From contig LT907983.1 of NCBI GenBank assembly GCA_900230115.1, positions 1,860,001 to 1,924,000 on the forward strand: a stretch of DNA of 64,000 nt, written 5' to 3'. Within the stretch, counting starts at the first letter, position 1. Each line of letters starts with the position of its first letter. This document shows positions 10 through 37,323 of the stretch, in pieces. The notes below the pieces were generated by a model. That model worked only from the letters and a program-made list of their open reading frames with translations. It ran no database searches and was not told the origin of the DNA. The position numbers and the translations under genes were made by a program. Source of the DNA: Spirosomataceae bacterium TFI 002. GTDB lineage: Bacteria > Bacteroidota > Bacteroidia > Cytophagales > Spirosomataceae.

Positions 10-50
10 TTTGGTTGAAATGAGTTAAAGAAAGTAAAATATGAGTTAAT
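10..50 (+). promoter_or_regulatory. Putative LytTR operator, class A (two ATGAGTTAA repeats, 21 bp apart)
   Basis: ATGAGTTAA occurs at 20-28 and again at 41-49, a start-to-start spacing of 21 bp (two helical turns). The block from 11 to 35, and then the second repeat, recurs exactly at 7041-7079 ahead of the giant adhesin gene. LytTR proteins are known to bind pairs of about 9-bp direct repeats with this spacing, so the inference is that the LytTR protein encoded 58 bp downstream binds here and autoregulates. No clear TAnnTTTG box was found between this site and the gene. Confidence 0.6.
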
Positions 51-19939: not shown

Positions 19940-22651
19940 ATGACACAACAAGGAATCATCAATGAATTACAAAATGAGCTAGACCTCCTCAAAAAGGCCT
20001 TAGCCATGGAGAAATCTGTTGAAAAGATTCGTTCTAAAACTTTGAGTATAAACCATAGTTGGCAATTTGAGCAAATACCGCTGGCCATTTTTAAGGAGTT
20101 TCGAGCTCTCGATTTAAGTATCCCTGTTATTCATTTTTACAAAAAAGTTGACTTTACATCCAAGGATTTAAGTTTTTGGGAAGTAAAACAAAATGGAAGT
20201 TCTCCATCGATTCAGGAAATTCATTTACCCTTTCAAGATGACATTTGGTTTAATACCATTCATGATCATCATGTACACAATAAGTCAACTTCTTTCGGTC
20301 TAAATAATGAAGAAACTCAGTTTTTAGAAAATTTAAAAAGAGAAATCCCAGAAGCAGCAACTTGCAAAAACTTAAGGGTCTACTTGAGTTTTGCAAGTAA
20401 AACGGGGCTAATGGTTATAGGAAATTCAGCAGAGTCAATAAACAGCGAATTTACGCAGCGTTTTGTACAACTTTTTGAAGAAGCGTACTTCCGCTACTTA
20501 GAGTTATTGAACTCCGAATTGCTGATCAAAAAAGCAGAGATAGAAGCTTCCTTAGAAAACGTACGGGTCAAAGGCATGGCCATGAAAGATACCACTGAGC
20601 TACAAGATTTAGTAAACGAGGTATCGCTTCATTTGAAAAAAAACCAAATAGACATCAACGGAGGCGTTTTTATTTGTATCAATCGTGAAGTTGATAAAGA
20701 TGTTCCGCTGTGGGGTTCTGGTGGGGCAGCAACTTATGTTCAAAAAGCCGTGGTGCCTTATATAGACAATCCCATATTTTTAAACCTCCGCAATGCCATT
20801 GTTAAAAAAACGGCATTTATAGATGAAGTAATTTCAAAAAAAGACAAAATAGCATTCTTCCAGCACCTTTTTAAGCACCATCCTTGGGATAAAGCACCCC
20901 TAGAAGCTCAAGAGAGGATGCTTGCCTTGCCAGGACCTTACGCTAGGGTGGCAACTATTTCCAACAATACCAGCATTTTTATGCTTAACAATGTGGGAAA
21001 GCCCTTTTCCGATTTCGACAAACAGGTCTTAATTCGCTCTGGTGAGGTTTTTGAGCAATTATATACTCGTTTTTTGGACTTACAAAAAGCAGAAGAGCAA
21101 AACATTAAACTACAAGAGTTAGAAGCAACAAAAACCCGATTTTACACCAATATTACTCATGAGTTCCGTACACCATTGACGGTTATTTCGGGCATGGCAA
21201 ATCAAATTGCCGACAACCCAAAAAAATGGCTAGATCAAGGAATGTCAATGATCATTCGCAATTCGGAAAGCTTATTGGTTTTAGTAAATCAAATGCTAGA
21301 CCTAAGTAAACTTGAGAGTGGAAACATGCTGTTTAATACCATTCAAGCAGATATAGCCCCCTACCTCAAATACTTGACAGAAAGCGTTCATTCTCTTGCT
21401 GAAATGAAAAATATCACATTGATTTTCAATTCAGCTGACGAAAAGAAAATGTTGGATTTTGACAAAGATAAAATCCAACAGATTATGCTCAATTTACTCA
21501 CCAATGCGATCAAATTCACACCTGATGGCGGTAAAGTTAATGTAGCTATCAAACTAAAGGCTGAGCAGAAACCCTTGCTTCATATCAGCGTTGAAGACTC
21601 CGGTATTGGTATATCAAACAAGCATATTCCACACATTTTTAATCGTTTTTATCAAGTAGACGACACCAGTACAAGGCAAATTGGAGGATCAGGTATTGGG
21701 CTTGCTTTGGTTAATGAACTTGTACAGCTCACTGGAGGAAGCATTCGAGTAGAAAGTGAGATCAATAAAGGAACCAAATTCAGCATTGAGCTTCCCGTCA
21801 CAAATAAAGCTCCCTTAGACGACTTCAAAGAAATAGAACCTAAACCAAAACTGATAAAGCAAGGTATTTGGCCTAAGGAAATGAACTTGAAAACCAACAA
21901 AGGTTTGCCACAAATTCTTTTAATAGAAGACAGCCCCGATATGGTAACCTATATCGTTTCTTGCCTAGAAAAGGACTTCGAAATTAGATTAGCTAAAAAT
22001 GGGCAAGAAGGGGTCAATATGGCTATGGAATTCATTCCTGATTTAATCATTTCGGATGTCATGATGCCTTTTAAAGATGGTTATGAAGTATGTCACAATT
22101 TAAAAAATGAAATAAAGACAAGCCACATTCCTATCATTTTACTCACCGCCAAAGCTGACTTAGAAAGCAGACTGGAAGGTTTTGAGAAGGGTGCCGATGC
22201 CTATTTGGCAAAACCTTTTCATAGTGAAGAGCTTATCATGCGAATAAGCAAATTGCTGGAATCAAGGAAAAAACTACAAGCTTTTTATCTTTCTCAAATC
22301 GGTAATAGTGCCCAGCTGGTTAATGAGCAAAACCCAGAGAACGAATTCATTCTGAAAATACAAGGAATTATAGAAGATAACCTGCTCCATCAAGAATTTA
22401 ATGTGGAAAGTCTATGCGTTATTATAGGCATATCTCACTCCCAATTACACAGAAAACTAATGGCTTTAGTAGGTATTTCACCCAACAAGTTAATTAATCA
22501 AATTAAGCTGCAAAATGCCAAAAAGTTGCTCGAAAACTCTACCTTAAACATAAGTCAAATTGCTACGAATTCAGGATTTAACGACCCTGGATATTTCAGT
22601 AGAATCTTTAAAAAGGAATTTGGCAAAACTCCGCAAAGTTGGCGTTCCTAA
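19940..22651 (+). CDS. Soluble hybrid histidine kinase / response regulator with AraC-type HTH
   Basis: This 903-residue protein joins sensor, kinase, receiver and DNA-binding output in one chain. The N-terminal 390 residues look like one or two GAF-like cytosolic sensor regions, with no signal peptide and no membrane segment. The kinase core has an H-box THEFRTPLTV (His about 407), an N-box LNLLTNAIKF, and G-boxes EDSGIGIS and GSGIGLALV. The receiver begins ILLIEDSPDM, with phospho-acceptor Asp about 706 in SDVMMP and the conserved Lys in AKPF. The C-terminus is an AraC-type HTH ending in GYFSRIFKKEFGKTP. Most Bacteroidota hybrid two-component regulators sense periplasmic glycans through a beta-propeller. 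This one lacks that region and would sense something inside the cell. Its position between adhesin operons suggests, but does not prove, a role in controlling them. Confidence 0.9.
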   Translation: MTQQGIINELQNELDLLKKALAMEKSVEKIRSKTLSINHSWQFEQIPLAIFKEFRALDLSIPVIHFYKKVDFTSKDLSFWEVKQNGSSPSIQEIHLPFQDDIWFNTIHDHHVHNKSTSFGLNNEETQFLENLKREIPEAATCKNLRVYLSFASKTGLMVIGNSAESINSEFTQRFVQLFEEAYFRYLELLNSELLIKKAEIEASLENVRVKGMAMKDTTELQDLVNEVSLHLKKNQIDINGGVFICINREVDKDVPLWGSGGAATYVQKAVVPYIDNPIFLNLRNAIVKKTAFIDEVISKKDKIAFFQHLFKHHPWDKAPLEAQERMLALPGPYARVATISNNTSIFMLNNVGKPFSDFDKQVLIRSGEVFEQLYTRFLDLQKAEEQNIKLQELEATKTRFYTNITHEFRTPLTVISGMANQIADNPKKWLDQGMSMIIRNSESLLVLVNQMLDLSKLESGNMLFNTIQADIAPYLKYLTESVHSLAEMKNITLIFNSADEKKMLDFDKDKIQQIMLNLLTNAIKFTPDGGKVNVAIKLKAEQKPLLHISVEDSGIGISNKHIPHIFNRFYQVDDTSTRQIGGSGIGLALVNELVQLTGGSIRVESEINKGTKFSIELPVTNKAPLDDFKEIEPKPKLIKQGIWPKEMNLKTNKGLPQILLIEDSPDMVTYIVSCLEKDFEIRLAKNGQEGVNMAMEFIPDLIISDVMMPFKDGYEVCHNLKNEIKTSHIPIILLTAKADLESRLEGFEKGADAYLAKPFHSEELIMRISKLLESRKKLQAFYLSQIGNSAQLVNEQNPENEFILKIQGIIEDNLLHQEFNVESLCVIIGISHSQLHRKLMALVGISPNKLINQIKLQNAKKLLENSTLNISQIATNSGFNDPGYFSRIFKKEFGKTPQSWRS

Positions 22652-22751
22652 AGTTCAAATCAGGCACAACTCTTCACTTCTCCAAAAGGCTATAAGCTAA
22701 ACCACGCTCCTCCGCAGCTAAGCCAATATTCCTTCAAAAACTCACAAACGC

Positions 22752-22781
22752 ACAGTTTGTCCCATTATTTGGGCAATTTGT
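22752..22781 (+). promoter_or_regulatory. Putative LytTR operator, class B (ACAGTTTGT N12 GCAATTTGT)
   Basis: Two 9-bp direct repeats start 21 bp apart. The left one fits the published LytTR half-site pattern [TA][AC][CA]GTTN[AG][TG] at all nine positions, and the right one at seven. The block, including the TTTGTCC cores and the central CATTATTTGGGCA, recurs upstream of the LytTR gene at 27477. Confidence 0.65.
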
Positions 22782-22806
22782 CCTACTGCTCATTATCTAG
22801 GCCTTA

Positions 22807-22814
22807 TAACTTTG
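22807..22814 (+). promoter_or_regulatory. Bacteroidota -7 promoter box (TAACTTTG)
   Basis: This is an exact match to TAnnTTTG, 26 bp after the TTTG of the right half-site. The identical 26-bp distance in the second copy (box at 27209) supports both elements. Transcription would start near 22821. Confidence 0.55.
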
Positions 22815-22820
22815 TAATCA

Positions 22821-23083
22821 GAGAAAACCTTAATGCAAAAGGTAATGAATAATACTAAAGCATAAACCCTTTCAGCTTAGGATACTTTACTTTCTCGACT
22901 TAAAGCCATGAAGACTAATTAATACCAAAAAAAACTTGGTTTTAAAATCCTAATAATCGCTCGAAAAGAAAAGTAGGGCCTTCGGGTAAAATATTGGGGG
23001 CTTCGTCCTAGATCAGTTTCTTAATAAACTGTATAGACCCAAATTTAATGCGTGAGATAAATAAAAACTTGCTAAAAACTGTC
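22821..23083 (+). other. Long conserved 5' leader of the second LytTR operon
   Basis: This is the non-coding stretch between the predicted start of transcription and the LytTR start codon. Several blocks match the leader at 27223-27476: a mini-ORF (ATG at 22908, 4 codons, MKTN), two CTTCG-containing elements around 22980-23010, and a short hairpin CAGTTT/AAACTG (23014-23031). The conserved blocks suggest a structured or regulatory leader RNA. Otherwise nothing recognisable lies in the gap 22652-22750. Confidence 0.4.
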
Positions 23084-23455
23084 ATGAAAGCTACCCTTAA
23101 TTCTTCTAAGATTCATGCTTCTGTAAAAATAGGAAGCCGAATGGAAGTGTTTCCAAACCAGATTTTAATGCTTAAAGCCGACCAAAACTATACCTATGTA
23201 TTTTTAAAAAATGGCTCTAAAATACTTAGCTCCACCACTTTGGGCACTATTGAAAAAAGACTTGTAGGAAATACCTTTTTCAGGGTGAACCGGTCAACGG
23301 TGGTAAACACCCAGCACATTATAAATACTGGAAGAAAAAACTTAGAAATACAAACCACTGAAACAAGTAAACCTCTGGTCATAAAAATCTCACGACGCAG
23401 AACTAAGCCTTTTTTGGCCTTTACTAACCTGAATAATTTAAAACCCCTTTTATGA
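23084..23455 (+). CDS. Stand-alone LytTR DNA-binding protein 2
   Basis: An ATG at 23048 is possible, but in the homologous region upstream of the gene at 27477 that codon is absent. The conserved start is therefore the ATG at 23084, in the shared GTCATGAAA context, giving 123 residues. The LytTR domain shows ADQNYTYVFLKNG, the FFRVNRSTVVN core and the basic ISRRRTKPF end. It is closely similar along its whole length to the LytTR protein at 27477 and distant from that at 108. There is no receiver domain. Its stop overlaps the next gene's ATG by 4 bp (ATGA), coupling it to the BspA-like surface protein. The predicted operator upstream suggests autoregulation. Confidence 0.88.
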   Translation: MKATLNSSKIHASVKIGSRMEVFPNQILMLKADQNYTYVFLKNGSKILSSTTLGTIEKRLVGNTFFRVNRSTVVNTQHIINTGRKNLEIQTTETSKPLVIKISRRRTKPFLAFTNLNNLKPLL

Positions 23456-26400
23456 TGAAACAACTACTCATTACTGTTTTGCTTTTATGCTCTTTTGGCA
23501 GCTTGCATGCAGTCGATAAAAACGGAAATGGTGATTTAAATGACCCTAAAAACGAACATTTCGAGCCCTATACCGCTGATAAAAAGGCATTTATTGTAAA
23601 TCATGAATCGACTGTATCAAGTTTAAAGACAAATTCTATTGACCGTACCAACGATAATTCAGGTAAAAAACCTGATAACATTTCAAATGGAGTTGCCTTC
23701 CTTCCTTTTATCACCACTTGGAATACAGCAGCTTTAAGTTCAGGTTCTTCAAATAGTACCTCCATCACTATCCCAACAGAAGGAACTGGATACAATTACG
23801 ATGTGGACTGGAACAATGATGGCACTTATGATGAATTTGGAGTAACGGGTTCTGTCACGCACGACTATGGTACAGCCGGTACTTACAGCGTAGCTATCAG
23901 AGGAACATTCCCAAGAATCTATTTTAGTAACAGTGGAGATAAGCTTAAACTGGTCTCAATTGACCAATGGGGCGATATTGTCTGGTCAAGTATGGGACGT
24001 GCTTTCTTTGGTTGTCAAAATATGGTGCTAAATGCAACAGATATCCCAAACACGGCCGCAGTTACCGATATGAGTTTTATGTTTGGTTTGTGTCAATCTT
24101 TTAACCAAGCCTTACCCGATGGATTTAACACTTCGGCGGTAACAAATATGTGGGGAATGTTTTCCTTCTGTACCGCGTATAACCAAGCTTTACCTAACAG
24201 TTTTAATACCAATAATGTTACTAGCATGGAGAGTATGTTTGAGTATTGCACTTCCTACAACCAAGCTTTACCCAACAGTTTTAACACCACGAACGTAACC
24301 AATATGCGTTCCATGTTTTCCAATTGTAGTTCTTTTAACCAAATATTGCCAATGAGTTTTAATACGGGCAATGTTACTGTCATGGAAGGTATGTTTGTTA
24401 ATTGTACCTCTTTTAACAAAGCGTTACCAGAAAGTTTTAATACTGAGAAAGTAAGGTATATGAATGGCATGTTTTATGGCTCCAGTGCTTATAACCAAGC
24501 CTTGCCTCAGAACTTTAATACAGGTGAAGTAATAGAAATGCGTGACATATTTACCGGATGCAGTGCTTTTAACCAATATGTTGGCAACCTTAACTTAAGT
24601 AATGTTACTAACATGGTTAATATTTTTCTAAATTCAGGTATTTCACAAAGTACTTATGATGCAATCTTAAAAGCGTGGGATAATGCGGGTTATACCAATA
24701 AAAACTTGGGAGATGCATCACCGTTGAGCTATTGTGCAGGGCAAATTTCCAGAAATAATTTGATAACTAACAAAGGCTGGACCATAACAGGAGATGTCCC
24801 TGCCGCATGCCGCGAAATTAACGTTAAGGGAAACAATGTAAGCATTGTCAATGCAGCCGCTACATCATCAGCCTTAGACTCAACAGATTTTGGAGCCATA
24901 ACCATGGGCCAAAGCAACACCAATACTTTCTGGATTATAAATGAGGGTACGGTAGCTTTAACTTTAGGAGCAAACCCTATAAGCCAAATAGGGACCAACC
25001 AAGCTGACTTTACCTTAACACAGCCAAGTCCTACCACTATTGCAGCAGCAGATTCTGTCTCTTTCCAAATCACTTTTGACCCCACTGCAGAAGGCCTGAG
25101 AACAGATATTGTGAGCATAGCCAACGATGATGTGGATGAAAGTCCTTTTACGTTTGCAATTACGGGTACTGGTACAACTTGTAGCATAACAGCCACTCCA
25201 ACGGACTTGCTCACCTGGACAGGAGCTAAAAACAATGTATGGAATGAAGCTTGTAACTGGACACCCATAGGGGTTCCATCTGCCACAAATGACGTAGTAA
25301 TTTCAAGTGGCACGTTAAACGAACCTACACTCTCCGTTAATAATGCTTCTGCCAGCACGGTAGAGGTACAGTCTGGAGCCACATTCACCATTGCTACAGG
25401 TGGAAAACTAGAGCTTAATGGGGAAAGGGCCATTTTGAGTGCCTTAAACTCAACTTTCTACAATAATGGTACGGTAGATAATAAAGGGAAAATAGTTATG
25501 GGTAATATAAATGCAATTGGTTCTATCGGTTTGTCAAATCATTCAACTTTTAATAACATTTCTGGCGGAGAGGTTCTCGTAGACAATACTACTTTAATTG
25601 GTATATTCAACTCAAGAGGAAACTTTAACAATGAAGCAAAAATTACTATTGGAGCAAATTCTCATTCAGGTACCTTCGGATTAACTAATGACGAATCAAC
25701 CTTTAACAATAACCCGGGAGGAGAAATAACTATTGATAGAACAGAGAATGGAATTAGCAATGTAGAAGGAGCAATAATTAGTAATAATGCCAAAATAACA
25801 ATAGGTGCAAATTCCCCGCTTCAAACAAGTGGTATCGATAATCGATACAATAGTTATTTTAATAATAATGCTAATGGTATAATAACTATTGATAGGACGG
25901 GTCAAAAAGGAATATGGAACGCCCTTGGCTCTTCTTTTACAAATTACGGCAAGGTAACTATAGGGGAAAATGCCCCTGTGGGTATAAATGGAGTTCAGAA
26001 TGGCTCCACTTTTATAAATTCTCAATGTGCGGAACTTAAACTAATACGGGGTGACTTTTTGAATAGTGCAACATATTCTACTTCAAACGCTGGCTATATT
26101 CTTGTGTCGGATTCTTTGAAAAACGAGGGCACCTTTACAAATGATGGCATTCTAAAATATGGTGTACAAACCAATAATCCTATCGTAAATACCGCAAATT
26201 CTTCCGTCATTGTAAAAGACACACTTTCTTCCATCTTTGCCTATGGAGGCACTTTTAATGGTACCGTGAATGGCATTTTCAAAGATGAAGCAGCTACTAA
26301 TTTAGCAGGTACATTTACAGCCCCAAATGGTTTTACCCCATCAAGTACATTGCCATTGGGTGTTCAAACACTCTACGCTAAAATCAGCCCTGAGGGATGG

Positions 26401-26955
26401 TGCAGCCATATAGTACCGTTTCTGTTTGATTTCGAATGTACAATCCCCAGTATTACGCTTCAACCCGTAAGCCAAAATATGTGCCCAGGCAACCCTGTTA
26501 CCTTGGAGGTGCTAGCCAATGGAAACGAATTGAATTATCAATGGCAGGTAGCCAATGGTACAGGATTTACAAACCTAACAGATGGCGGAATTTATCAAGG
26601 TGCCACTACTGCTTCCCTAAATTTAGCATACCCTACAGCTGACATGAATACTTACCAATATCGTTGTGTAGTTTCTGGAAGCGGTACATGTAATTTACTT
26701 GCAGATACCTCCGCTATTGCCGATGTAGCGATAGGCGTAGTAGCTCTAGGTCAAACCGTCACCTACACTGCTCCCATCAGTAATGATGATGGTGTAACAC
26801 AAGCGGCAATTTCCGTTTTAGGTACCAATTCTATCTTATCTACTGGTAAAGCGGAGTTCAGGGCGGGGAACGATGTTATTTTAAACCCTGGCTTTCATGC
26901 TCACTCTGGTGCTGTTTTTACTGCTAGAATAAAAGCCCCCTGTCCAAATGAATAA
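23452..26955 (+). CDS. BspA-like leucine-rich repeat surface protein with 3-coathanger stack
   Basis: This 1,167-residue protein has a signal peptide (MMKQLLITVLLLC, cleaved near HA-VD). Residues about 80-150 hold the PKD-like FITTW...VDWNNDGTYDEFG segment that usually precedes BspA repeats. Residues about 205-400 contain 26-residue BspA/DUF285 repeats with the pattern MxxMFxxCxxFNQxLP. They are followed by choice-of-anchor D (about 455-575), a WTGA...CNW module with degenerate NNNxGGEI repeats (about 583-900), an Ig-like domain (YQWQ...YQYRCVV, about 1005-1095) and a 3-coathanger stack (about 1100-1167, NPGFHAHSGAVF). BspA-type repeats mediate adhesion in other bacteria, so an adhesin role here is inferred. 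It is coupled to the upstream LytTR gene and no partner T9SS type A gene follows. Confidence 0.87.
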   Translation: MMKQLLITVLLLCSFGSLHAVDKNGNGDLNDPKNEHFEPYTADKKAFIVNHESTVSSLKTNSIDRTNDNSGKKPDNISNGVAFLPFITTWNTAALSSGSSNSTSITIPTEGTGYNYDVDWNNDGTYDEFGVTGSVTHDYGTAGTYSVAIRGTFPRIYFSNSGDKLKLVSIDQWGDIVWSSMGRAFFGCQNMVLNATDIPNTAAVTDMSFMFGLCQSFNQALPDGFNTSAVTNMWGMFSFCTAYNQALPNSFNTNNVTSMESMFEYCTSYNQALPNSFNTTNVTNMRSMFSNCSSFNQILPMSFNTGNVTVMEGMFVNCTSFNKALPESFNTEKVRYMNGMFYGSSAYNQALPQNFNTGEVIEMRDIFTGCSAFNQYVGNLNLSNVTNMVNIFLNSGISQSTYDAILKAWDNAGYTNKNLGDASPLSYCAGQISRNNLITNKGWTITGDVPAACREINVKGNNVSIVNAAATSSALDSTDFGAITMGQSNTNTFWIINEGTVALTLGANPISQIGTNQADFTLTQPSPTTIAAADSVSFQITFDPTAEGLRTDIVSIANDDVDESPFTFAITGTGTTCSITATPTDLLTWTGAKNNVWNEACNWTPIGVPSATNDVVISSGTLNEPTLSVNNASASTVEVQSGATFTIATGGKLELNGERAILSALNSTFYNNGTVDNKGKIVMGNINAIGSIGLSNHSTFNNISGGEVLVDNTTLIGIFNSRGNFNNEAKITIGANSHSGTFGLTNDESTFNNNPGGEITIDRTENGISNVEGAIISNNAKITIGANSPLQTSGIDNRYNSYFNNNANGIITIDRTGQKGIWNALGSSFTNYGKVTIGENAPVGINGVQNGSTFINSQCAELKLIRGDFLNSATYSTSNAGYILVSDSLKNEGTFTNDGILKYGVQTNNPIVNTANSSVIVKDTLSSIFAYGGTFNGTVNGIFKDEAATNLAGTFTAPNGFTPSSTLPLGVQTLYAKISPEGWCSHIVPFLFDFECTIPSITLQPVSQNMCPGNPVTLEVLANGNELNYQWQVANGTGFTNLTDGGIYQGATTASLNLAYPTADMNTYQYRCVVSGSGTCNLLADTSAIADVAIGVVALGQTVTYTAPISNDDGVTQAAISVLGTNSILSTGKAEFRAGNDVILNPGFHAHSGAVFTARIKAPCPNE
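24070..24612 (+). repeat. Seven tandem ~78-bp BspA/DUF285 repeats
   Basis: Methionine codons opening each unit fall at 24070, 24148, 24226, 24304, 24382, 24460 and 24538. Each unit of 26 codons reads MxxMFxxCxxFNQxLPxxF followed by NTxxVT. A shorter degenerate unit follows at 24613. Confidence 0.85.
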
Positions 26956-27153
26956 TAAATAGTGGACTTATATATCATAGGAACAGTAAAGTGAAGAGCC
27001 GTATAGAATACTCCATTTCACAATGCATAAAAACACTAAGCTGTCAATCACAAATAGAAAATGAGGGATAGTGTCTCGTGAATAAATAAAGCCGCAATTT
27101 TCCTCCTTCTTTTATTAAGTCGAGCTTTTCCCTTTCCAAAAAAGGACAAATGC

Positions 27154-27183
27154 ATAGTTTGTCCCATTATTTGGGCAGTTTGT
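27154..27183 (+). promoter_or_regulatory. Putative LytTR operator, class B, second copy (ATAGTTTGT N12 GCAGTTTGT)
   Basis: The 9-bp direct repeats are again 21 bp apart, and each matches the LytTR half-site pattern at eight of nine positions. The core between them is identical to the copy at 22752-22781. An upstream GGACAAA at about 27143 also forms an inverted repeat with the first TTTGTCC. Confidence 0.65.
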
Positions 27184-27208
27184 CCTAACACTCATTTTCA
27201 ATGAGTTA

Positions 27209-27216
27209 TATCTTTG
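27209..27216 (+). promoter_or_regulatory. Bacteroidota -7 promoter box (TATCTTTG)
   Basis: This is a TAnnTTTG match placed 26 bp after the operator, exactly as at 22807. The two upstream regions differ around it, so the conserved spacing is informative. Confidence 0.55.
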
Positions 27217-27222
27217 CTAAAT

Positions 27223-27476
27223 AGAAAAAACACCGAAACATACCCTAGAGCTATACCAAAAAAATACAGCTTCTAATGTTTAGGATATTTAGCTTGCTCA
27301 ACCTTATAGCCATGAAAGCAAATTAAGAAAACAGCCGCCTGAGGTTCTGTCCTTTGATCAGGGAAACAGGGCCTTCGGACAAAAAAACAGGGGCTTCGTC
27401 CTAGAACGGTTTCTTAATAAACTAAATAGGTTCAAATTTAAAGCGTGAGCTAAATAAGAAATACTTAAAAAATGTC
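27223..27476 (+). other. Long conserved 5' leader of the third LytTR operon
   Basis: It matches the leader at 22821-23083 in blocks: a 4-codon mini-ORF (ATG at 27312, MKAN), the CTTCG elements at about 27370-27400, a hairpin-like GGTTT/AAACT (27408-27423) and the AAATTTAA-GCGTGAG segment before the start. In the preceding stretch 26956-27150 I see no gene or convincing terminator. Confidence 0.4.
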
Positions 27477-27833
27477 ATGAAAACTACTCCTAATACAGCT
27501 AAGCTTCATATTCCTGTTAAAATAGGAAGTCGAATGGAAGTGATTCCAAACCAAATTTTAATGCTTAAAGCCGACCAAAACTATACTGAAGTGTTTCTTT
27601 TAAATGGTTCTAAGATATTGAGCTCTACCACTATGGGTACCATTGAAAAAAGATTAGTAGGAAATGTTTTTTTCAGAGTGAACCGCTCCACTATCATAAA
27701 TACCCGTCATATTATTAAGACGGGCGAAAAAAACCTAGAAATACAAACCACCGAAAAAAGCAAGCCTGAGCTTGTGAAAATATCACGACGCAGGGCTAAA
27801 CCTTTTTTGGCCTTTACCAGCCTAAATAATTAA
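27477..27833 (+). CDS. Stand-alone LytTR DNA-binding protein 3
   Basis: This 118-residue protein is almost entirely a LytTR domain, with the same landmarks as the protein at 23084: VKIGSRMEV near the N-terminus, ADQNYTEVFLLNG, FFRVNRSTIIN and KISRRRAKPF. The two are clearly recent paralogs. Unlike the other two LytTR genes, it does not overlap the next gene. It is separated by 56 bp from the signal-peptide start of the large beta-helix protein. Autoregulation through the class B operator upstream is inferred. Confidence 0.9.
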   Translation: MKTTPNTAKLHIPVKIGSRMEVIPNQILMLKADQNYTEVFLLNGSKILSSTTMGTIEKRLVGNVFFRVNRSTIINTRHIIKTGEKNLEIQTTEKSKPELVKISRRRAKPFLAFTSLNN

Positions 27834-27889
27834 AACCCCTACAGAAGATGAAGCATACAACTGCTAACATCTTTCTTAAACCAATAGAT

Positions 27890-30800
27890 ATGAAAAAACT
27901 TTTACAACTCATTCTCACCTTCTTATGCTTTACTTCTATAAGTTTAGCACAGGATATTTATGTAAACGTAAATGCCACTGGTGCCAATAACGGCTCTTCA
28001 TGGACAGATGCCTACATAGATTTACAAGATGCCATAGACGCAGCTACTGCAAACCAAGAAATTTGGGTAGCTGCAGGCACTTACTTGCCTACAGCTTCAC
28101 CTGATGACATATCTACCGACCCTCGTGACAAAAGTTTTCATATAGGTACAGACATGAAAATTTATGGTGGATTTAATGGTACGGAGACTGCACTATCTCA
28201 AAGAGACTGGACTAACAATGCTACCATCCTAAGTGGAGACATAGGCACCGTAGGTAATAGCACAGACAATAGCTACCACGTATTTATTACAGCTAACCTT
28301 ACCAGTGCAGCGATTATTGATGGATTTACTGTACAAAACGGTTATGCAAACGGAAGTAGTACTATTTCCTACTCATCTCCTATACCGCTGTGGCGACTTG
28401 GTGGCGGCGGAATGAGTAATGTTTCTTCTTCCCCTACAATTAACAATGTGACTTTCACCGCAAATTCGGCTGATTACGGCGGAGGGATGCTTAATAATTC
28501 TTCCTCACCTATAGTTAACAATGTAACTTTCACCGCAAATTCGGCTAATTTCGGCTTCGGAGGTGGGATGCATAATCAAAATTATTCTTCCCCCACCTTG
28601 AAAAACGTAACTTTCTCCGCAAATTCGGCTAATTTGGGCGGCGGCGGCGGAATGTATAATTCTTTATCCTCACCTACAGTTAACAATGTAATCTTCTCGG
28701 CAAATTCATCCACAGGCGACGGTGGCGGGATGTTTAATATTTCTTCATCCCTTACACTGAGCAATGTAATCTTTGCTTCAAACACGTCGAATTCCGGCGA
28801 CGGCGGGGGAATGTATAATCGTGATTCTCCTTCCACTACATTGACCAATGTGACATTCAAGGGGAATATAGCGACTAACGGCGGCGGGATGTATAATTAT
28901 AACTCTTCTCCTATAATTACCAATTCTATCTTTTGGGACAATATGAAAGGTACAAGCACTACCGTTGCGGGAGCAGATATAGAAAATCTTTCTTCTACAC
29001 CTACCGTCACCTACACCTCACTTCAGGGCTATACCGGCGGTACAGGATGTATTACTGGAGACCCGCTATTTGTAAATGCTACAGATGCAGATGGAGCAGA
29101 TAATGTATGGATGACTGCAGATGATGGACTACGCTTAGTAATGGGTAGTCTCGCTATAAATGCAGGAAACAATGCAGCTATACCCAGCGGTATCACCACA
29201 GATATCACAGGAGCTGTACGTATACAAGATGTAACGGTGGACATGGGGGCATATGAAGATGTAGTGTGTAGTTTTGCTACATTATATGTAGATAGCACTA
29301 TAGCAGCCAGCGGAAACGGTAGTTCATGGAGCACCGCATTCAAAACCCTGAGCGAGGCCATAGACCGAGTATGTACCAATACAGATAGTATACTCGTAGC
29401 AGCAGGGACATATTTACCTACCAGCAAACCTACGGGAGTGGTAACAGCAGACCCTAGAGACGTGACCTTTTATCTAAACCAAGACATAATACTCCTAGGA
29501 GGCTACCCAGCAGGTGGGGGTACGCGAGATGCAGCAGCCAATCCAACCATCCTAAGTGGAGATATAGGCGTTTTAGGAGATTCTTTGGACAATAGCTACC
29601 ATGTTTTTATTACTGCTAGTCTTTCTAATGCAGCGGTTATTGAAGGCTTTACTATACAAAACGGTAATGCAAATGGAAGTAGTATTATTTCCTACGCATC
29701 TCAATCGCTGAGTCGACGTAATGGCGGCGGAATGATTAATCATAATTCTTCACCTACAGTTACAGATGTGACCTTCTTGTCCAATACGGCGAGTAACATT
29801 GGCGGCGGGATGCTGAATGAAAATTCTTCTCCGACACTTACCAATGTGAACTTTGTGTTCAATAAGGCGGATGGCGGAGGTGGGATATATAATGGAAATT
29901 CTTCACCTAGTTTAAGTAATCTGACCTTTGCCTCCAATACAGCGAATATCGGTGGCGGGATGCAGAATTATTATTATTCTTCTCCTATCTTAACCAATGT
30001 GCTTTTCTCTTCCAATTCGGCAGGTCTTGGTGGTGGAATGGCCAACGATTTCTCCTCGCCAACACTTACTAATGTAACCTTCTTTTCCAATTCGTCAAGT
30101 TCAAGTTATGGTGGCGGAATATATAATAACAATACATGCTTTCCTGTAGTAACAAATTGCATCTTCTGGGAGAATATGCAAGGTACAAGCACAACCGCAG
30201 CTGGGGCAGATATGGAAAGTTATAGTTCATCCTCACCTGTAGTCACATATACCTCATTACAAAGCTACGCTGGCGGTACAGGGTCTATCAACGGAGACCC
30301 ACTTTTTGTAGACGCTGCCAATGGGGATTATAGGTTAAAAGCTTGTTCTCCAGCTATTAATATGGGCACTACGGTAAGTCATACTACCGATATATTGGGT
30401 AATAATCATTTTGGAATAGTGGATATGGGAGCCTATGAGTATCAAGGAAACCCTTTTAGTAGCACTGCCATTTACGTTAAAAAAGATGCTACTGGTGACA
30501 ATGATGGCTCATCATGGGCAAATGCCTATACTGATTTACAAGATGCCATAGACAACCAATGCAATGGGTTAGATATTTGGGTTGCCGCGGGCACTTACTT
30601 GCCTACAGCTTCACCTGATGACATATCTACCGACCCTCGTGATAAAAGTTTTCACATAGGCACAGATATGAAAATATACGGTGGATTTGATGGTACAGAG
30701 ACTGCACTCTCTCAAAGAGATTGGGAATCAAACGTCACTATATTAAGTGGTGATTTTGATGGTAATGATGTGGTAACAGGAGCCGGTAGCAGCTTATCTT

Positions 30801-33800
30801 TTACTAATAATGAAGAGAATGCTATCCATGTACTCATTACTGCAGATTTAACCACCTCAAGCATAATTGATGGATTTACCATTACGAAGGGGAATGCTAA
30901 TGTATCTCCTGGAGCTATTACTTATCAGTCTAAGAGTTTTTTCGGTAGCTTAGGAGGTGGATTATATAATTTTACTTCTTCACCATTCATCACCAATACC
31001 ACATTTGTCAATAATAATACAGATTTTCACGGTGGTGCAATGTCAAATTATGGTTCATCGCCATCAATTACTAATTCTGTTTTTGCCAATAATAACGCTG
31101 ATAGAAATGGAGGAGGAATTTATAACGAGTTTTCTTCGCCAGCAATTACCAACACCACCTTTGTAAATAATAATGCAGCTTTAAAAGGTGGCGGAATTTA
31201 TAACATACAATTTTCACCAACAATCGCAAATACTATTTTTTGGGAGAATACTCAATTGGGTGGCAATGCCGTCGCAGGAGCGGATATATCAGACAATGGA
31301 AGTGCCACGAACGCAACCTACTCCCTTACCCAAGAAAACAGTGATTTTAGTACAGGAACGGGCATCATTAATAATGAAGACCCACTTTTTGTAGATGCTG
31401 CCAATGGTGACTTTAGGCTGCAGGCTTGTTCGCCAGTAATAGATAAAGGAACCGCAGATACCACAGGACTTAACTTAGGCTTGATAGATTTGGCAGGAAA
31501 CCCAAGAGTTTTAGATGGCAGAATAGACATGGGAGCCTATGAAGGTGCAAGTGTAGGACTCGCCACCGCCACAGACTTACTCACATGGACAGGAGCAGTA
31601 GATACAGTATGGAACAATGCCTGTAACTGGTCTCCCGCAGGTATTCCTACTGCTACTAATGACGTAATTATTCCTGCAGGGCTAACAAACCAGCCGACAA
31701 TCTCCATTATTAATGCCGTGGCAAGCACAGTGGAAGTATATGGAGAACTCACCATTGCCTCTGACGGAAAACTGGAACTTAATGGGGCAATATTTTTCCC
31801 AAGCGGTAGTTTTAATGGCAATTTCTATAATTGGGGTACGGTTCATAACAATGGTGAATTAGTCATAGAAAACCTGAATACTATAAGTAACTTGGGATTA
31901 TTTAACAGAGGAACTTTTAACAATAATACGGAAGGAGAGATTATAATTGACAATACGACTTCAGGTGGTTTAAGTAATACTTTCAATACTGCTTCTTTTA
32001 AAAATAGTGGTAAAATCAACATAGGTACCAATGGCCCTATAGGTTCTACAGGGATTTCAGTTTTTCAAGGCACTTTTACGAATTTTTCAGAAGGAGAAAT
32101 TAATATTGACAATACAGCAAACACAGGTATAAGCATCTCTGGAAGTACTATTTTTAATAATGAAGGTAAGATTACTATAGGTGCCAACTCCACAGAGATT
32201 AAGAATGGATTGGAGAATAATTACTCCACTTTTAATAACACCTTGTGTGCTGAGTTTAAAATTTTCAAGGGTATTTTACACAATAATTCAACACAATACT
32301 TTACCGCAACAGTAACAAACACAGGCTATATTTTAACTATGGATAGCCTAAAAAATGAAGGTACATTTACCAATAACGGCGTATTAAAATATGGTGTACA
32401 AACTGGTAACGCTGTCGCAAATTCAACAGATTCTTCTATCATTGTCAATGATACGCTTTCTACCATCTTTACCTATGGTGGCACTTATAATGGTACGGTA
32501 AATGGCATTTTCACGGATGAAACGGCCACAGTTTCAGCTGGGTCTTATGAAGTAGATAGAGATGTTGATTTTATAGCAGCCTGTAATTTACCTAGCGGTA
32601 CACAAACCCTTTATGCTAGTATAACATCTTCTTCATGTACCTCGCCAGTTATAGTACCTTTCCTTTACAATAATGTAGTAGCCACCCCTACTGACTTACT
32701 CACATGGACAGGAGCAAAAAACACTGACTGGAACAATGCCTGTAACTGGTCTCCCGCAGGTATTCCTACTGCTACTAATGATGTAATTATTCCTGGGGGT
32801 TTATCAAATCAGCCTACTATAACTATTGATACGGCCAAAGCTGGGAGCATGAAAGTAGAATCTGGAGCCATATTTACCATAGCGGCCAGTGGCAAGTTGG
32901 AGCTTTATGGGTCAAAAGCTAATTTTAATATTGAATCATACACTTTCATTAATTCTGGCACAGTAGAAAACAATGGTACATTAACTATCGGAATTGAAAA
33001 TTTTATCGATGACTATGGTCTGGCGAATTATTTTCACTTTAACAATAATGTAGGAGGAGAAGTCATCATTGATAGAAGTACAGAAGCAGCCATATTAAAT
33101 GTTGGTACCATAACCAATGATGCTAATATTACCATTGGTTCAAATACTGGAATAGGTGATTATGGCTTTTATAATTTTTCAACTTTTAATAATAGTATTT
33201 GTGCCAACCTTAAAATTGAACAGGGTAAATTTAGAAATAACAATGGAACAGCAGTCACTAACTTGGGCTATGTCTATTTGGCTGATACCTTAGAAAATGA
33301 AGGCATATTCACTAATGATGGCCTTTTAAAAAGCGGCGTACAAACAGGAAACCCAGTTGTAAATAGTACAGATTCTTCTGTCATTGTCAATGATACGCTT
33401 TCTACCATCTTTAGCTATGGTGGTACTTTTAACGGTACGGTCAATGGTATTTTCACAGATGAAGCTGCTACCGTTTCAGCAGGTGCGTTTACTACTCCCA
33501 ATAGTTTTGTACCCTTAAGTACATTGCCTTTAGGCAGTCAAACACTTTATGCCAAAGTAACGCCTAATGGCGGTGCCTGTAGCCATGTGGTACCATTCCT
33601 GTTTGATAACTTTAGAGAAATAGACGTAAGAGGAAATTATGTAAGCATAGCCAATGGAGACATGAGTCCATCGGTTTCAGACTTGACAGACTTTGGTGTA
33701 GCGGGTATAACTGGTGGAACTATTTCCAATATTTTTACGATAGTAAATGAAGGTACCTCCACTTTAACTTTAGGTGCTAATCCTGTTACTAAATCTGGAC

Positions 33801-35830
33801 CACATGAAGCTGATTTTACAATTGTTCAGCCAAGTGAAACTACCATAGCTCCGGGCGATAGTGTATACCTTGATATTATTTTTGACCCCTCGGTTTTCGG
33901 AGAGAGAAACGCCACTATAAGTATTGCCAATGACGATGCTGATGAGAGCCCTTACACCTTCGCCATTTTAGGTAGTAGTATTTGCAATACCTCACCTACA
34001 GCAAGCATCTCAGATTCGCAAAACCTCACTTGTACTGTCACTTCTGTTACAAGAACAGCAAGTGGTGGAACTTCTTATTCTTGGTCGAATAGCTTGGGAA
34101 CCAATGCTACAGCCAATATTACAGCAGCAGGAACTTATACTGTAACGGTCACTGCCGCGAATGGATGTACAAGCACTGCAACAACAGAAGTGACTATTGA
34201 CAATACGCCACCAACCGCAAGTATCTCAGGTACACAAAACCTCACTTGTTCCACCACCTCAGTAAGCAGAACAGCATCTGGAGGAACAAGCTACTCCTGG
34301 TCAAATGGAGACAATACAGCGATTGCGACAATAAATGCTGCTGGAACTTACACGGTAACAGTCACTGCAGCCAATGGCTGTACAGCGACAGCAACTACAG
34401 CTGTAAGCCAAAATATAACGCCTCCGACTCCAAGTGTCACAGGGTCAGATAACCTCACTTGTACTGTCACTTCTGTTACAAGAACAGCAAGTGGTGGAAC
34501 TTCTTATTCTTGGTCGAATAGCTTGGGAACCAATGCTACAGCCAATATTACAGCAGCAGGAACTTATACTGTAACGGTCACTGCCGCGAATGGATGTACA
34601 AGCACCGCAACTACAGAGGTGTCCATTGACAATACGCCACCTACAGCAAACATCTCAGATTCGCAAAACCTAAGCTGTACCATCACCTCGGTAAGCAGAA
34701 CAGCATCTGGTGGAACAAGCTACTCCTGGTCAAATGGAGACAATACAGCGATTGCGACAATAAATGCTGCAGGAACTTACACGGTAACAGTCACTGCCGC
34801 CAATGGCTGTACAGCGACAGCAACTACAGCTGTAAGCCAAAATATAACGCCTCCGACTCCAAGTATCACAGGGTCAGATAACCTCACTTGTACTGTCACT
34901 TCTGTTACAAGAACAGCAAGTGGTGGAACTTCTTATTCTTGGTCGAATAGCTTGGGAACCAATGCTACAGCCAATATTACAGCAGCAGGAACTTATACTG
35001 TAACGGTCACTGCCGCGAATGGATGTACAAGCACTGCTACTACAGAAGTGACTATTGACAACACGCCACCAACCGCAAGTATCTCAGGTACACAAAACCT
35101 CACTTGTTCCACCACCTCAGTAAGCAGAACAGCATCTGGAGGAACTAGCTATGCATGGTCTAACGGATTAGGAACAAATGCCACAGTAAATATCAATTCC
35201 ACTGGGACTTACACCGTAACCGTAACTGCTGCCAATGGCTGTACAAGTTCTGCAACTACAGCAGTGATACAAGAAAGCACAGAGATTGCGATCTTAACCC
35301 AACCTCAAAGCACTAGTATTTGCCAAGGAAACAATACTATTTTCAATGTTATTACAAATCAAACTGGTGTCAATTATCAATGGCAAGTATATGAGGGGAA
35401 TAGTTGGGTAGACATCTCTAATTCCACAATTTATGGAGGTGCTAATACGTCAAGTTTAACATTGACCTTCCCTTCGGTGGCTTTCAATGGCAATCAATAT
35501 CGCTGCAAACTCACCAAGGATATTTGCACGAGCTATTCAGGCACAGCTGTTTTAAGCGTCTCTATAGGTGCGGAGGCTATTTCGGTTGTTCATGTGTCCA
35601 CCATAAGCGGCGTTGTCAACTCGCAAGCAGTATCTTTTGGTGTAGCAATTAATAAAAACCTTGCTGGGTCAAGAGTAGACTTTAAAGCTGGAAACTCCAT
35701 TGAACTCAGGCCAGGCTTTCTTGCTGAGACTGGCTCGGTTTTCTCTGCCAAAATTAAGAATGCCTGCCAAAATGAAGGAAGTGCCAATTCTCGAGTAAGC
35801 AACATTATTCCAAAAGAATTAATTAAGTAA
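27890..35830 (+). CDS. Giant triple beta-helix surface protein with six PKD-like repeats and 3-coathanger stack
   Basis: The ATG at 27890 is preferred to that at 27848 because it directly begins a signal peptide (MKKLLQLILTFLCF, ending LAQ). The product is 2,646 residues. Three right-handed beta-helix modules (about 25-460, 465-858, 860-1220) each open with a GSSW(A/T/S)xA pattern. They carry many SSPTxxNVTF and GGGM(Y/L)N turns resembling chlamydial Pmp repeats, and two end DMGAYE. Next come two WTGA...CNW modules (from about 1223 and 1600), choice-of-anchor D (about 1908-2035), six NLTC...TASGG PKD-like domains (about 2036-2465), an Ig domain (YQWQ...YRCKL), a 3-coathanger stack (about 2563-2635) and a tail IPKELIK like that of the other giant protein. 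An adhesin or matrix role is inferred. A T9SS type A gene follows. Confidence 0.87.
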   Translation: MKKLLQLILTFLCFTSISLAQDIYVNVNATGANNGSSWTDAYIDLQDAIDAATANQEIWVAAGTYLPTASPDDISTDPRDKSFHIGTDMKIYGGFNGTETALSQRDWTNNATILSGDIGTVGNSTDNSYHVFITANLTSAAIIDGFTVQNGYANGSSTISYSSPIPLWRLGGGGMSNVSSSPTINNVTFTANSADYGGGMLNNSSSPIVNNVTFTANSANFGFGGGMHNQNYSSPTLKNVTFSANSANLGGGGGMYNSLSSPTVNNVIFSANSSTGDGGGMFNISSSLTLSNVIFASNTSNSGDGGGMYNRDSPSTTLTNVTFKGNIATNGGGMYNYNSSPIITNSIFWDNMKGTSTTVAGADIENLSSTPTVTYTSLQGYTGGTGCITGDPLFVNATDADGADNVWMTADDGLRLVMGSLAINAGNNAAIPSGITTDITGAVRIQDVTVDMGAYEDVVCSFATLYVDSTIAASGNGSSWSTAFKTLSEAIDRVCTNTDSILVAAGTYLPTSKPTGVVTADPRDVTFYLNQDIILLGGYPAGGGTRDAAANPTILSGDIGVLGDSLDNSYHVFITASLSNAAVIEGFTIQNGNANGSSIISYASQSLSRRNGGGMINHNSSPTVTDVTFLSNTASNIGGGMLNENSSPTLTNVNFVFNKADGGGGIYNGNSSPSLSNLTFASNTANIGGGMQNYYYSSPILTNVLFSSNSAGLGGGMANDFSSPTLTNVTFFSNSSSSSYGGGIYNNNTCFPVVTNCIFWENMQGTSTTAAGADMESYSSSSPVVTYTSLQSYAGGTGSINGDPLFVDAANGDYRLKACSPAINMGTTVSHTTDILGNNHFGIVDMGAYEYQGNPFSSTAIYVKKDATGDNDGSSWANAYTDLQDAIDNQCNGLDIWVAAGTYLPTASPDDISTDPRDKSFHIGTDMKIYGGFDGTETALSQRDWESNVTILSGDFDGNDVVTGAGSSLSFTNNEENAIHVLITADLTTSSIIDGFTITKGNANVSPGAITYQSKSFFGSLGGGLYNFTSSPFITNTTFVNNNTDFHGGAMSNYGSSPSITNSVFANNNADRNGGGIYNEFSSPAITNTTFVNNNAALKGGGIYNIQFSPTIANTIFWENTQLGGNAVAGADISDNGSATNATYSLTQENSDFSTGTGIINNEDPLFVDAANGDFRLQACSPVIDKGTADTTGLNLGLIDLAGNPRVLDGRIDMGAYEGASVGLATATDLLTWTGAVDTVWNNACNWSPAGIPTATNDVIIPAGLTNQPTISIINAVASTVEVYGELTIASDGKLELNGAIFFPSGSFNGNFYNWGTVHNNGELVIENLNTISNLGLFNRGTFNNNTEGEIIIDNTTSGGLSNTFNTASFKNSGKINIGTNGPIGSTGISVFQGTFTNFSEGEINIDNTANTGISISGSTIFNNEGKITIGANSTEIKNGLENNYSTFNNTLCAEFKIFKGILHNNSTQYFTATVTNTGYILTMDSLKNEGTFTNNGVLKYGVQTGNAVANSTDSSIIVNDTLSTIFTYGGTYNGTVNGIFTDETATVSAGSYEVDRDVDFIAACNLPSGTQTLYASITSSSCTSPVIVPFLYNNVVATPTDLLTWTGAKNTDWNNACNWSPAGIPTATNDVIIPGGLSNQPTITIDTAKAGSMKVESGAIFTIAASGKLELYGSKANFNIESYTFINSGTVENNGTLTIGIENFIDDYGLANYFHFNNNVGGEVIIDRSTEAAILNVGTITNDANITIGSNTGIGDYGFYNFSTFNNSICANLKIEQGKFRNNNGTAVTNLGYVYLADTLENEGIFTNDGLLKSGVQTGNPVVNSTDSSVIVNDTLSTIFSYGGTFNGTVNGIFTDEAATVSAGAFTTPNSFVPLSTLPLGSQTLYAKVTPNGGACSHVVPFLFDNFREIDVRGNYVSIANGDMSPSVSDLTDFGVAGITGGTISNIFTIVNEGTSTLTLGANPVTKSGPHEADFTIVQPSETTIAPGDSVYLDIIFDPSVFGERNATISIANDDADESPYTFAILGSSICNTSPTASISDSQNLTCTVTSVTRTASGGTSYSWSNSLGTNATANITAAGTYTVTVTAANGCTSTATTEVTIDNTPPTASISGTQNLTCSTTSVSRTASGGTSYSWSNGDNTAIATINAAGTYTVTVTAANGCTATATTAVSQNITPPTPSVTGSDNLTCTVTSVTRTASGGTSYSWSNSLGTNATANITAAGTYTVTVTAANGCTSTATTEVSIDNTPPTANISDSQNLSCTITSVSRTASGGTSYSWSNGDNTAIATINAAGTYTVTVTAANGCTATATTAVSQNITPPTPSITGSDNLTCTVTSVTRTASGGTSYSWSNSLGTNATANITAAGTYTVTVTAANGCTSTATTEVTIDNTPPTASISGTQNLTCSTTSVSRTASGGTSYAWSNGLGTNATVNINSTGTYTVTVTAANGCTSSATTAVIQESTEIAILTQPQSTSICQGNNTIFNVITNQTGVNYQWQVYEGNSWVDISNSTIYGGANTSSLTLTFPSVAFNGNQYRCKLTKDICTSYSGTAVLSVSIGAEAISVVHVSTISGVVNSQAVSFGVAINKNLAGSRVDFKAGNSIELRPGFLAETGSVFSAKIKNACQNEGSANSRVSNIIPKELIK
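33993..35279 (+). repeat. Three tandem 429-bp repeats (six alternating PKD-like domains)
   Basis: Near-identical blocks begin at 34022, 34451 and 34880 (AACCTCACTTGTACTGTCAC), a period of 429 bp or 143 codons. Each period contains two different ~71-residue PKD-like domains in the order A-B, so the array reads A-B-A-B-A-B and was expanded as a dimer. Confidence 0.85.
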
Positions 35831-35856: not shown

Positions 35857-37323
35857 ATGAAAAGGTATATTTTACTCTCTATTTTATTAATCGTTGCAAC
35901 TTTGGATTCCAAGGCAACCACATTCATAAGTAATGCAAGCCAAGTATCTGGCACCTTGAATTTACAGATCAATTGGGGTGAAACTGACGTTAACATTAGT
36001 GACCCAGGAACTAGCCTGCATAAGTACAAGCTTATCTATAAACCATCAGGAGGTTCTGCTACCACAATAGATAATATCTCAAGTGCCTCAAGGTCATATA
36101 CCATCAATAATTTAACGCCTGGCACTTACGAAGTTGAACTCATTGAGGTCATTAGAATTCAAGTCCCTCCTACTCCATTTTCTCCTCCTTATGTGGACAA
36201 TGAAAGTTCTTCTGGGGTACAGTCAGCTTCCATTATGTCATTGAATGCAGCTCCGATTGCTAACTGCTCCAATAGAACACTTTCTGTAGGTGATGGTACT
36301 ATGGTAAACTTATGGGGCTATCAAGCAGGCGAAGGTTCTACTGACCCAAACGGCGATCCTTTAACTTTTAGCTTGTATCCAGAAGGTCCCTATGGAGTAG
36401 GAAACCATATGATAGAACTGACAGTAAGCGACCCTGATGGTTTAAATTCTAAATGCTATTTCACGCTTACTGTGATAGATAATACTCCACCAGTGGTTCT
36501 GGCAAAAAATGCAGTGATATTTATCAAAGCCAATGGATATGCTGAGCTAAACATAGAAGATGTTGATGACAGGTCCTACGACAACGTGAGCTGGGTTCAC
36601 AAAACCATTAGCAAGAGGTTATTTACTTGTGAAGATGTAGGTTTCAATAGTGTAACCCTCACCGTTAAAGATGAAAGTGGAAATACAAGTTCTAAAAACG
36701 TGACTGTTCAGGTTGTAGATAATACCGAGCCTTATATTATTGATAAGCCATTAACTTTATATGCTGACGAAAATGGGGTAGCCATTCTTTCGCAATCAAT
36801 TATTGATACCCTAGTTTACGACAATTGTGGACTTCAAAAGGTCGTAGTTTCTAAAGATACTTTTAACATCGCTAACCCATCGGACAGCCTTACAATCATT
36901 GCAACTGATAAAAGTGGGAATGTATCTGCAAAAAAAATCTCAGTTACGGTTCTAGAATCCGCCTCAAAAACCGAGACCCAAAACTTCATTATCAACATAG
37001 CAAATAAAGAAGCTTTTAAAAGTCCATATTCGATTCAAAGCTTTAGTTTACAGTCCGCTCAGGAAAGTAGTTTGGTAAACGAAAATATAGAAAGTAAAAT
37101 TAGTTTTGGTCCTAACCCTAGTACAGGAATTGTAACCTTTCAAATCCCAAACAATTTTGAAAAAATTCATTTATATGATACCAACGGACACAAAGTCCCT
37201 CTGAACATCACAAACTACAACAGCTCTTTTCAGGTAAATTTACAAGATCTGCGAGACGGATTGTACATTCTCCAACTCCAAAATTCGAAGGTCAATAAAA
37301 TTATAAAACTGATGAAAAATTGA
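35857..37323 (+). CDS. T9SS type A sorting-domain protein with HYR-like domains (copy 2)
   Basis: This is a 488-residue paralog of the product of the gene at 18302, in the same position behind a giant 3-coathanger protein. The signal peptide (MKRYILLSILLIV) and the T9SS type A domain (FGPNPSTGIVTF...GLYILQL) differ from copy 1. The central ~350 residues, containing the fibronectin-like and HYR-type domains, are nearly identical in protein and DNA. T9SS type A domains direct export through the outer membrane and surface attachment. No enzyme motif was seen. A strong terminator follows, so this is the last gene of the third LytTR operon. Confidence 0.88.
   Translation: MKRYILLSILLIVATLDSKATTFISNASQVSGTLNLQINWGETDVNISDPGTSLHKYKLIYKPSGGSATTIDNISSASRSYTINNLTPGTYEVELIEVIRIQVPPTPFSPPYVDNESSSGVQSASIMSLNAAPIANCSNRTLSVGDGTMVNLWGYQAGEGSTDPNGDPLTFSLYPEGPYGVGNHMIELTVSDPDGLNSKCYFTLTVIDNTPPVVLAKNAVIFIKANGYAELNIEDVDDRSYDNVSWVHKTISKRLFTCEDVGFNSVTLTVKDESGNTSSKNVTVQVVDNTEPYIIDKPLTLYADENGVAILSQSIIDTLVYDNCGLQKVVVSKDTFNIANPSDSLTIIATDKSGNVSAKKISVTVLESASKTETQNFIINIANKEAFKSPYSIQSFSLQSAQESSLVNENIESKISFGPNPSTGIVTFQIPNNFEKIHLYDTNGHKVPLNITNYNSSFQVNLQDLRDGLYILQLQNSKVNKIIKLMKN

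Follow-up and report, generated by a model that had tools for sequence, protein, structure and literature searches.

AraC of Escherichia coli binds araI1–araI2, a pair of half-sites of about 17 bp that repeat with a 21-bp period beside the promoter and carry TCC in the second box. The motifs of Bacteroides HTCS regulators are direct repeats with a mean distance of 21 bp, those of HTCS_Man consisting of 16-bp sites with a 5-bp spacer (PMC3878776). In LytTR regulatory systems, repeats separated by 12 bp lie next to the promoters (PMC6193735), and the heptamer GTTTGTC lies within CCGTTTGTC, a site of the LytTR regulator AlgR (PMC4064291). By computational means only, we compared with these systems two sites in a 64,000-nucleotide stretch of DNA (the window; C1:1860001–1924000 of a 5.46-Mb source genome, G000, that forms the one contig C1), each of which precedes an operon encoding a stand-alone LytTR protein and an adhesin.

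Twin sites and their promoter geometry

Operator A consists of the half-sites ACAGTTTGT and GCAATTTGT, separated by 12 nucleotides (22752–22781 of the window), and operator B of ATAGTTTGT and GCAGTTTGT with the same gap (27154–27183). Direct reading confirmed the coordinates that a sequence-only reading had given for these paired 9-bp direct repeats, 21 bp apart, and a 32-bp string, AGTTTGTCCCATTATTTGGGCARTTTGTCCTA, was matched exactly at 22754 and again at 27156 but did not appear in any of 100 shuffles. The TAnnTTTG box described alongside them begins exactly 26 nt past the right TTTG in both operons; we predict −7 boxes at TAACTTTG in operon A (22807–22814, + strand; consensus from PMC7366714) and at TATCTTTG in operon B (27209–27216, +; by comparison of offsets). 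The twin sites are real, conserved and beyond chance.

Genome-wide, this site type (class A) was found four times with spacing and box offset kept: at A (22.75 kb of the window), at B (27.15 kb) and at two unrelated loci, C (C1:810403–810462, − strand) and D (C1:3443133–3443192, −), the boxes of which are TAATTTTA or TAAATTTG. Site C lies about 110 bp ahead of a gene for a 1327-aa repeat adhesin with no LytTR gene between, and site D ahead of another stand-alone LytTR gene (3442 kb). In a search of 222 family genomes that allowed up to two mismatches, the composite pattern was present only in the source genome, in G047 (two sites) and in G150 (one site), the latter two belonging to genera other than the source genus, which brings class A to seven sites; three-mismatch matches were present in genera g2 and g11. 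A broader 7-mer pair pattern gave only chance-level matches in four genomes. In all seven class A sites the right GTTTGT core is followed by a −7-like box 31 nt further on, counted from first base to first base (in order, TAACTTTG, TATCTTTG, TAATTTTA, TAAATTTG, TATCTTTG, TAAATTCA and GAACTTTG), and a LytTR gene follows six of them. The fixed promoter geometry and common regulon proposed from the first two sites are upheld and extended by the others.

Alignment of the seven sites revealed that the conserved unit is 16 bp long (TGCACAGTTTGTCCYA) and is followed by a 5-bp spacer and a second unit starting with TG. Class A units repeat with a period of 21 bp, have TG at positions 1–2 (seven of seven right units, six of seven left units) and GTCC or ATCC near the end, and the right unit ends 21 nt before the −7 box; the conserved TG falls outside the 9-bp LytTR half-site. 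On the + strand of the window the units are CGCACAGTTTGTCCCA (22749–22764) and TGGGCAATTTGTCCTA (22770–22785) for operator A, and TGCATAGTTTGTCCCA (27151–27166) and TGGGCAGTTTGTCCTA (27172–27187) for operator B. Class B operators, GTTCAAAATGAGTTAA, span the same positions with respect to the −7 box. Direct repeats upstream of 113 stand-alone LytTR genes were enriched at spacing 21 only; at 12/14 identity or better, such repeats preceded 12 of 73 LytTR genes of other genomes compared with at most one at any other spacing, a few of them being the CTTCGG leader element described below. Related arrangements occur elsewhere in the source genome. A class B-like 21-bp repeat with a poor −7 box (TGAGTTAAA-N12-TGAGTTAAT; window 21–50) comes after another AraC-type regulator gene and precedes a LytTR gene (108–437), and triple 21-bp repeats like ACCAACCATTTA abut the promoter at LytTR genes of another subfamily (C1:4103637 and C1:4074429, both −).

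Gene content of the locus

All genes described here lie on the + strand of the window. Operon A encodes stand-alone LytTR protein A (23048–23455; PF04397), with a likely start at 23084 on the basis of paralog alignment, and an 1167-aa surface protein or adhesin with DUF285 repeats (23452–26955). Operon B encodes LytTR protein B (27477–27833; PF04397) and a repetitive surface protein of 2660 aa with PKD and Ig-like domains (27848–35830); a gene for a secreted protein with a Por_Secre_tail sorting domain (35857–37323) is probably its last. Tiny conserved frames, MKTN-stop and MKAN-stop, are present in the two leaders (22908–22922 and 27312–27326) and are possible leader peptides.

Directly upstream of operator A, positions 19940–22651 encode a 903-aa hybrid histidine kinase–receiver–AraC regulator that has HisKA, HATPase_c, Response_reg and HTH_18 (Pfam) on one chain, as HTCS proteins do. 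Because it has no transmembrane stretch (highest 19-residue hydropathy, 1.23) and a Pfam search recognized no sensor domain, the protein appears to be soluble and HTCS-like, not a classical HTCS. Judged by sequence, it is the best candidate for the binder of the twin operators.

Association of the sites with HTCS genes

In G047 and G150, a class A site sits between an ortholog of the HTCS-like gene (79% and 58% identity, respectively), directly upstream of the operator, and a LytTR ortholog (86% and 57%). The order HTCS–operator–LytTR is kept in three genera, even though the LytTR protein is only 57% identical to that of G150. The site at 404 kb of G047 precedes a LytTR gene (55%) without an adjoining HTCS gene, as does site D. 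G047 also carries a second LytTR–adhesin pair directly after the first (L102:15172–18999), which has the CTTCGG leader and no class A operator.

An HTCS-type gene lies directly upstream of 11 of 111 LytTR genes, and strong 21-bp repeats were found in 6 of these 11, compared with 16 of the other 100. AraC ends were located by profile, as a strict regular expression had missed most. Behind 29 HTCS genes, 16 had 21-bp repeats at 11/14 identity or better. At 26 of these 29 loci of the family there is no LytTR gene within the examined flanks, and 15 of these 26 have a 21-bp repeat plus a −7 box at about the class A offset (other spacings with a −7 box: none at 19, at most one at 22 and up to seven at 20). 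Among the 11 best LytTR-free sites, seven have TG at positions 1–2 of both units (for example L133, TGAAACAATAGTCCAC/TGGGATTATAGTCCAC) and several have GTCC at positions 11–14. Locus L125, with perfect 21-bp repeats before a surface-protein gene and no LytTR gene, parallels operon A.

Operator sequence also followed the recognition helix of the HTCS protein. At the LytTR-free loci, GTCC often occurs near positions 11–14 where the helix is DP[GK]YFSR; more broadly, the right unit had TCC in its second half in 10 of 14 cases with a DPxYF[ST]R helix and in none of 18 without this helix, in counts that include related sequences and weak sites. Counted by distinct helices the association was 7/10 versus 0/15 (Fisher p = 2.5e-4, a value that is indicative only, since the motif, the helix classes and the offsets were all chosen by exploring these data). 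Helices of the ESLxYFSK type pair with GAGTTAA or other sequences. Outside the family, HTCS genes with DP[AS]YFSR frequently had GTCC or TCC, in several cases at least, and out-of-family HTCS loci had no clear enrichment at spacing 21. The twin sites share with HTCS operators the centre distance of about 21 bp, the adjoining regulator gene with its synteny, and the unit grammar with its −7 offset.

Alternative binders and origins

The sequence-only reading had assigned the sites to the stand-alone LytTR proteins, which would bind the 9-bp repeats, each of them controlling its own operon as well as that of the other. Several observations speak for this assignment and against the HTCS-like regulator: a LytTR gene follows most class A sites, two of the sites (D and G047 404 kb) lack an HTCS neighbour, 12-bp gaps are typical of LytTR sites, and the half-sites agree with the loose LytTR consensus and with the GTTTGTC of AlgR; the result at spacing 21 outside the family also counts against HTCS binding. 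The fit to the LytTR pattern holds at 7 to 9 of 9 positions, but pairs scoring 16–17 of 18 also lie upstream of several other LytTR genes in the genome, and the consensus match therefore carries little weight. The genome encodes 56 LytTR domains, of which stand-alone proteins of less than 190 aa account for about 40, and a consensus scan upstream of all 56 genes gave no general enrichment; a literature search for Bacteroidetes LytTR operators returned nothing useful. LytTR binding is not favoured because LytTR-free HTCS genes share the geometry and unit grammar, because operator sequence tracks the HTCS helix, and because the contact residues (NYT, NRS and SRRR, at positions that we take to correspond to those of AgrA) are identical for GTTTGTCC and GAGTTAA operators, such that operator sequence does not vary with them between the two classes. 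Further, the offset of the GTT core to the −7 box is not the same in the two classes, and the 5-bp shift would place the core on opposite DNA faces; the conserved TG extends beyond the half-site, and the second LytTR gene of G047 lacks such a site. We consider direct LytTR control of the twin sites, with its auto- and cross-regulation, unlikely.

Both proteins might act, with the HTCS-like regulator activating at the twin units and LytTR competing or assisting at the GTTTGTC cores. GTTTGTC overlaps the HTCS B-box, and LytTR genes are accompanied by a leader element that contains TTCGTCC units; for LytTR at the twin sites themselves, however, the loose consensus match is all that speaks, and we regard joint binding as very improbable. 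Since operons A and B are paralogous (their upstream regions have several other blocks in common), the twin sites by themselves could be relics of recently copied operons, identical without function. This is outweighed by the sites at unrelated loci and in other genera. Although the DNA is otherwise dissimilar at C, D, the G047 404-kb site and G150, all of them retain the units, the spacing and the −7 offset, which already contradicts mere duplication and leaves it scarcely credible.

Proposed regulation

We propose that the twin sites are most likely operators of the HTCS-like regulator, which would activate the two nearby LytTR–adhesin operons and, probably, two further targets in trans. On receiving a signal, the activated protein would bind both 16-bp units on one face of the DNA and recruit RNA polymerase to promoters without a clear −33 element. 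This would switch on operon A (LytTR and DUF285 protein) and operon B (LytTR and large adhesin) and, in trans, the adhesin gene at 810 kb and the LytTR gene at 3442 kb. In this scheme, the HTCS switch would yield the LytTR proteins, which would act downstream, perhaps by way of the CTTCGG element of their own leaders. Of the earlier interpretation, the operators, promoter geometry and regulon stand, and LytTR as binder is disfavoured.

The leader element is CCTTCGGGTA-N13-TTCGTCC in operon A (22979–23008, +; 21-bp period) and CCTTCGGACA-N13-TTCGTCC in operon B (27372–27401, +), two candidate LytTR sites found by sequence comparison; the A copy differs from CCTTCGGACA at ACA, and a third CTTCGG-like unit is often present 21 bp upstream. 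The element also occurs upstream of LytTR genes in several genera and, in other genera, about 70 bp downstream of a receiver-LytTR gene. A LytTR-domain gene was present at 12 of 30 examined loci (cross-genus loci include L255–L283), and nine of the remainder are near-identical matches that look like one coding-region family. We rejected an interspersed repeat, as the element is rare in genome searches and mostly beside LytTR genes; an Rfam search for a known RNA gave no match. The element follows LytTR genes from genus to genus and, as a candidate LytTR operator, is to be preferred to the twin sites. Tentatively, two switches built of 21-bp repeats may be stacked in each adhesin operon, with an HTCS operator by the promoter and a separate LytTR operator in the leader (the CCTTCGG/TTCGTCC array), in which case the soluble hybrid kinase would turn on LytTR, LytTR would tune its own adhesin operon, and the array would be a general LytTR operator of the family for stand-alone LytTR and receiver-LytTR proteins.

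Comparison with known systems

These results probably correct the assignment of the regulator and, for a group that has received little study, point to a specific regulon of adhesin genes. They also suggest a rule for predicting HTCS targets, including those outside sugar utilization: 16-bp units with a 21-bp period, about 21 nt from the end of the right unit to the −7 box, and DPxYFSR paired with GTCC. The twin sites resemble araI1–araI2 of E. coli AraC in half-site size, 21-bp period, promoter adjacency and TCC in the second box, and differ in regulator architecture and sigma factor. As in LytTR operators (AgrA, AlgR and LRS; PMC4064291, PMC6193735), two imperfect repeats about 12 bp apart lie upstream of a promoter, with the GTTTGTC core of one AlgR site; unlike them, the twin sites are conserved over 16 bp, have TG outside the half-site and follow a grammar found without LytTR genes. 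A further likeness in layout, direct repeats about 21 bp apart with the 16-bp units and 5-bp spacer of HTCS_Man near the regulator gene, is to Bacteroides HTCS operators (PMC3878776), from which this system differs in having a regulator without a transmembrane stretch or recognized sensor domain and in its targets, which are LytTR–adhesin operons here and polysaccharide utilization loci there.
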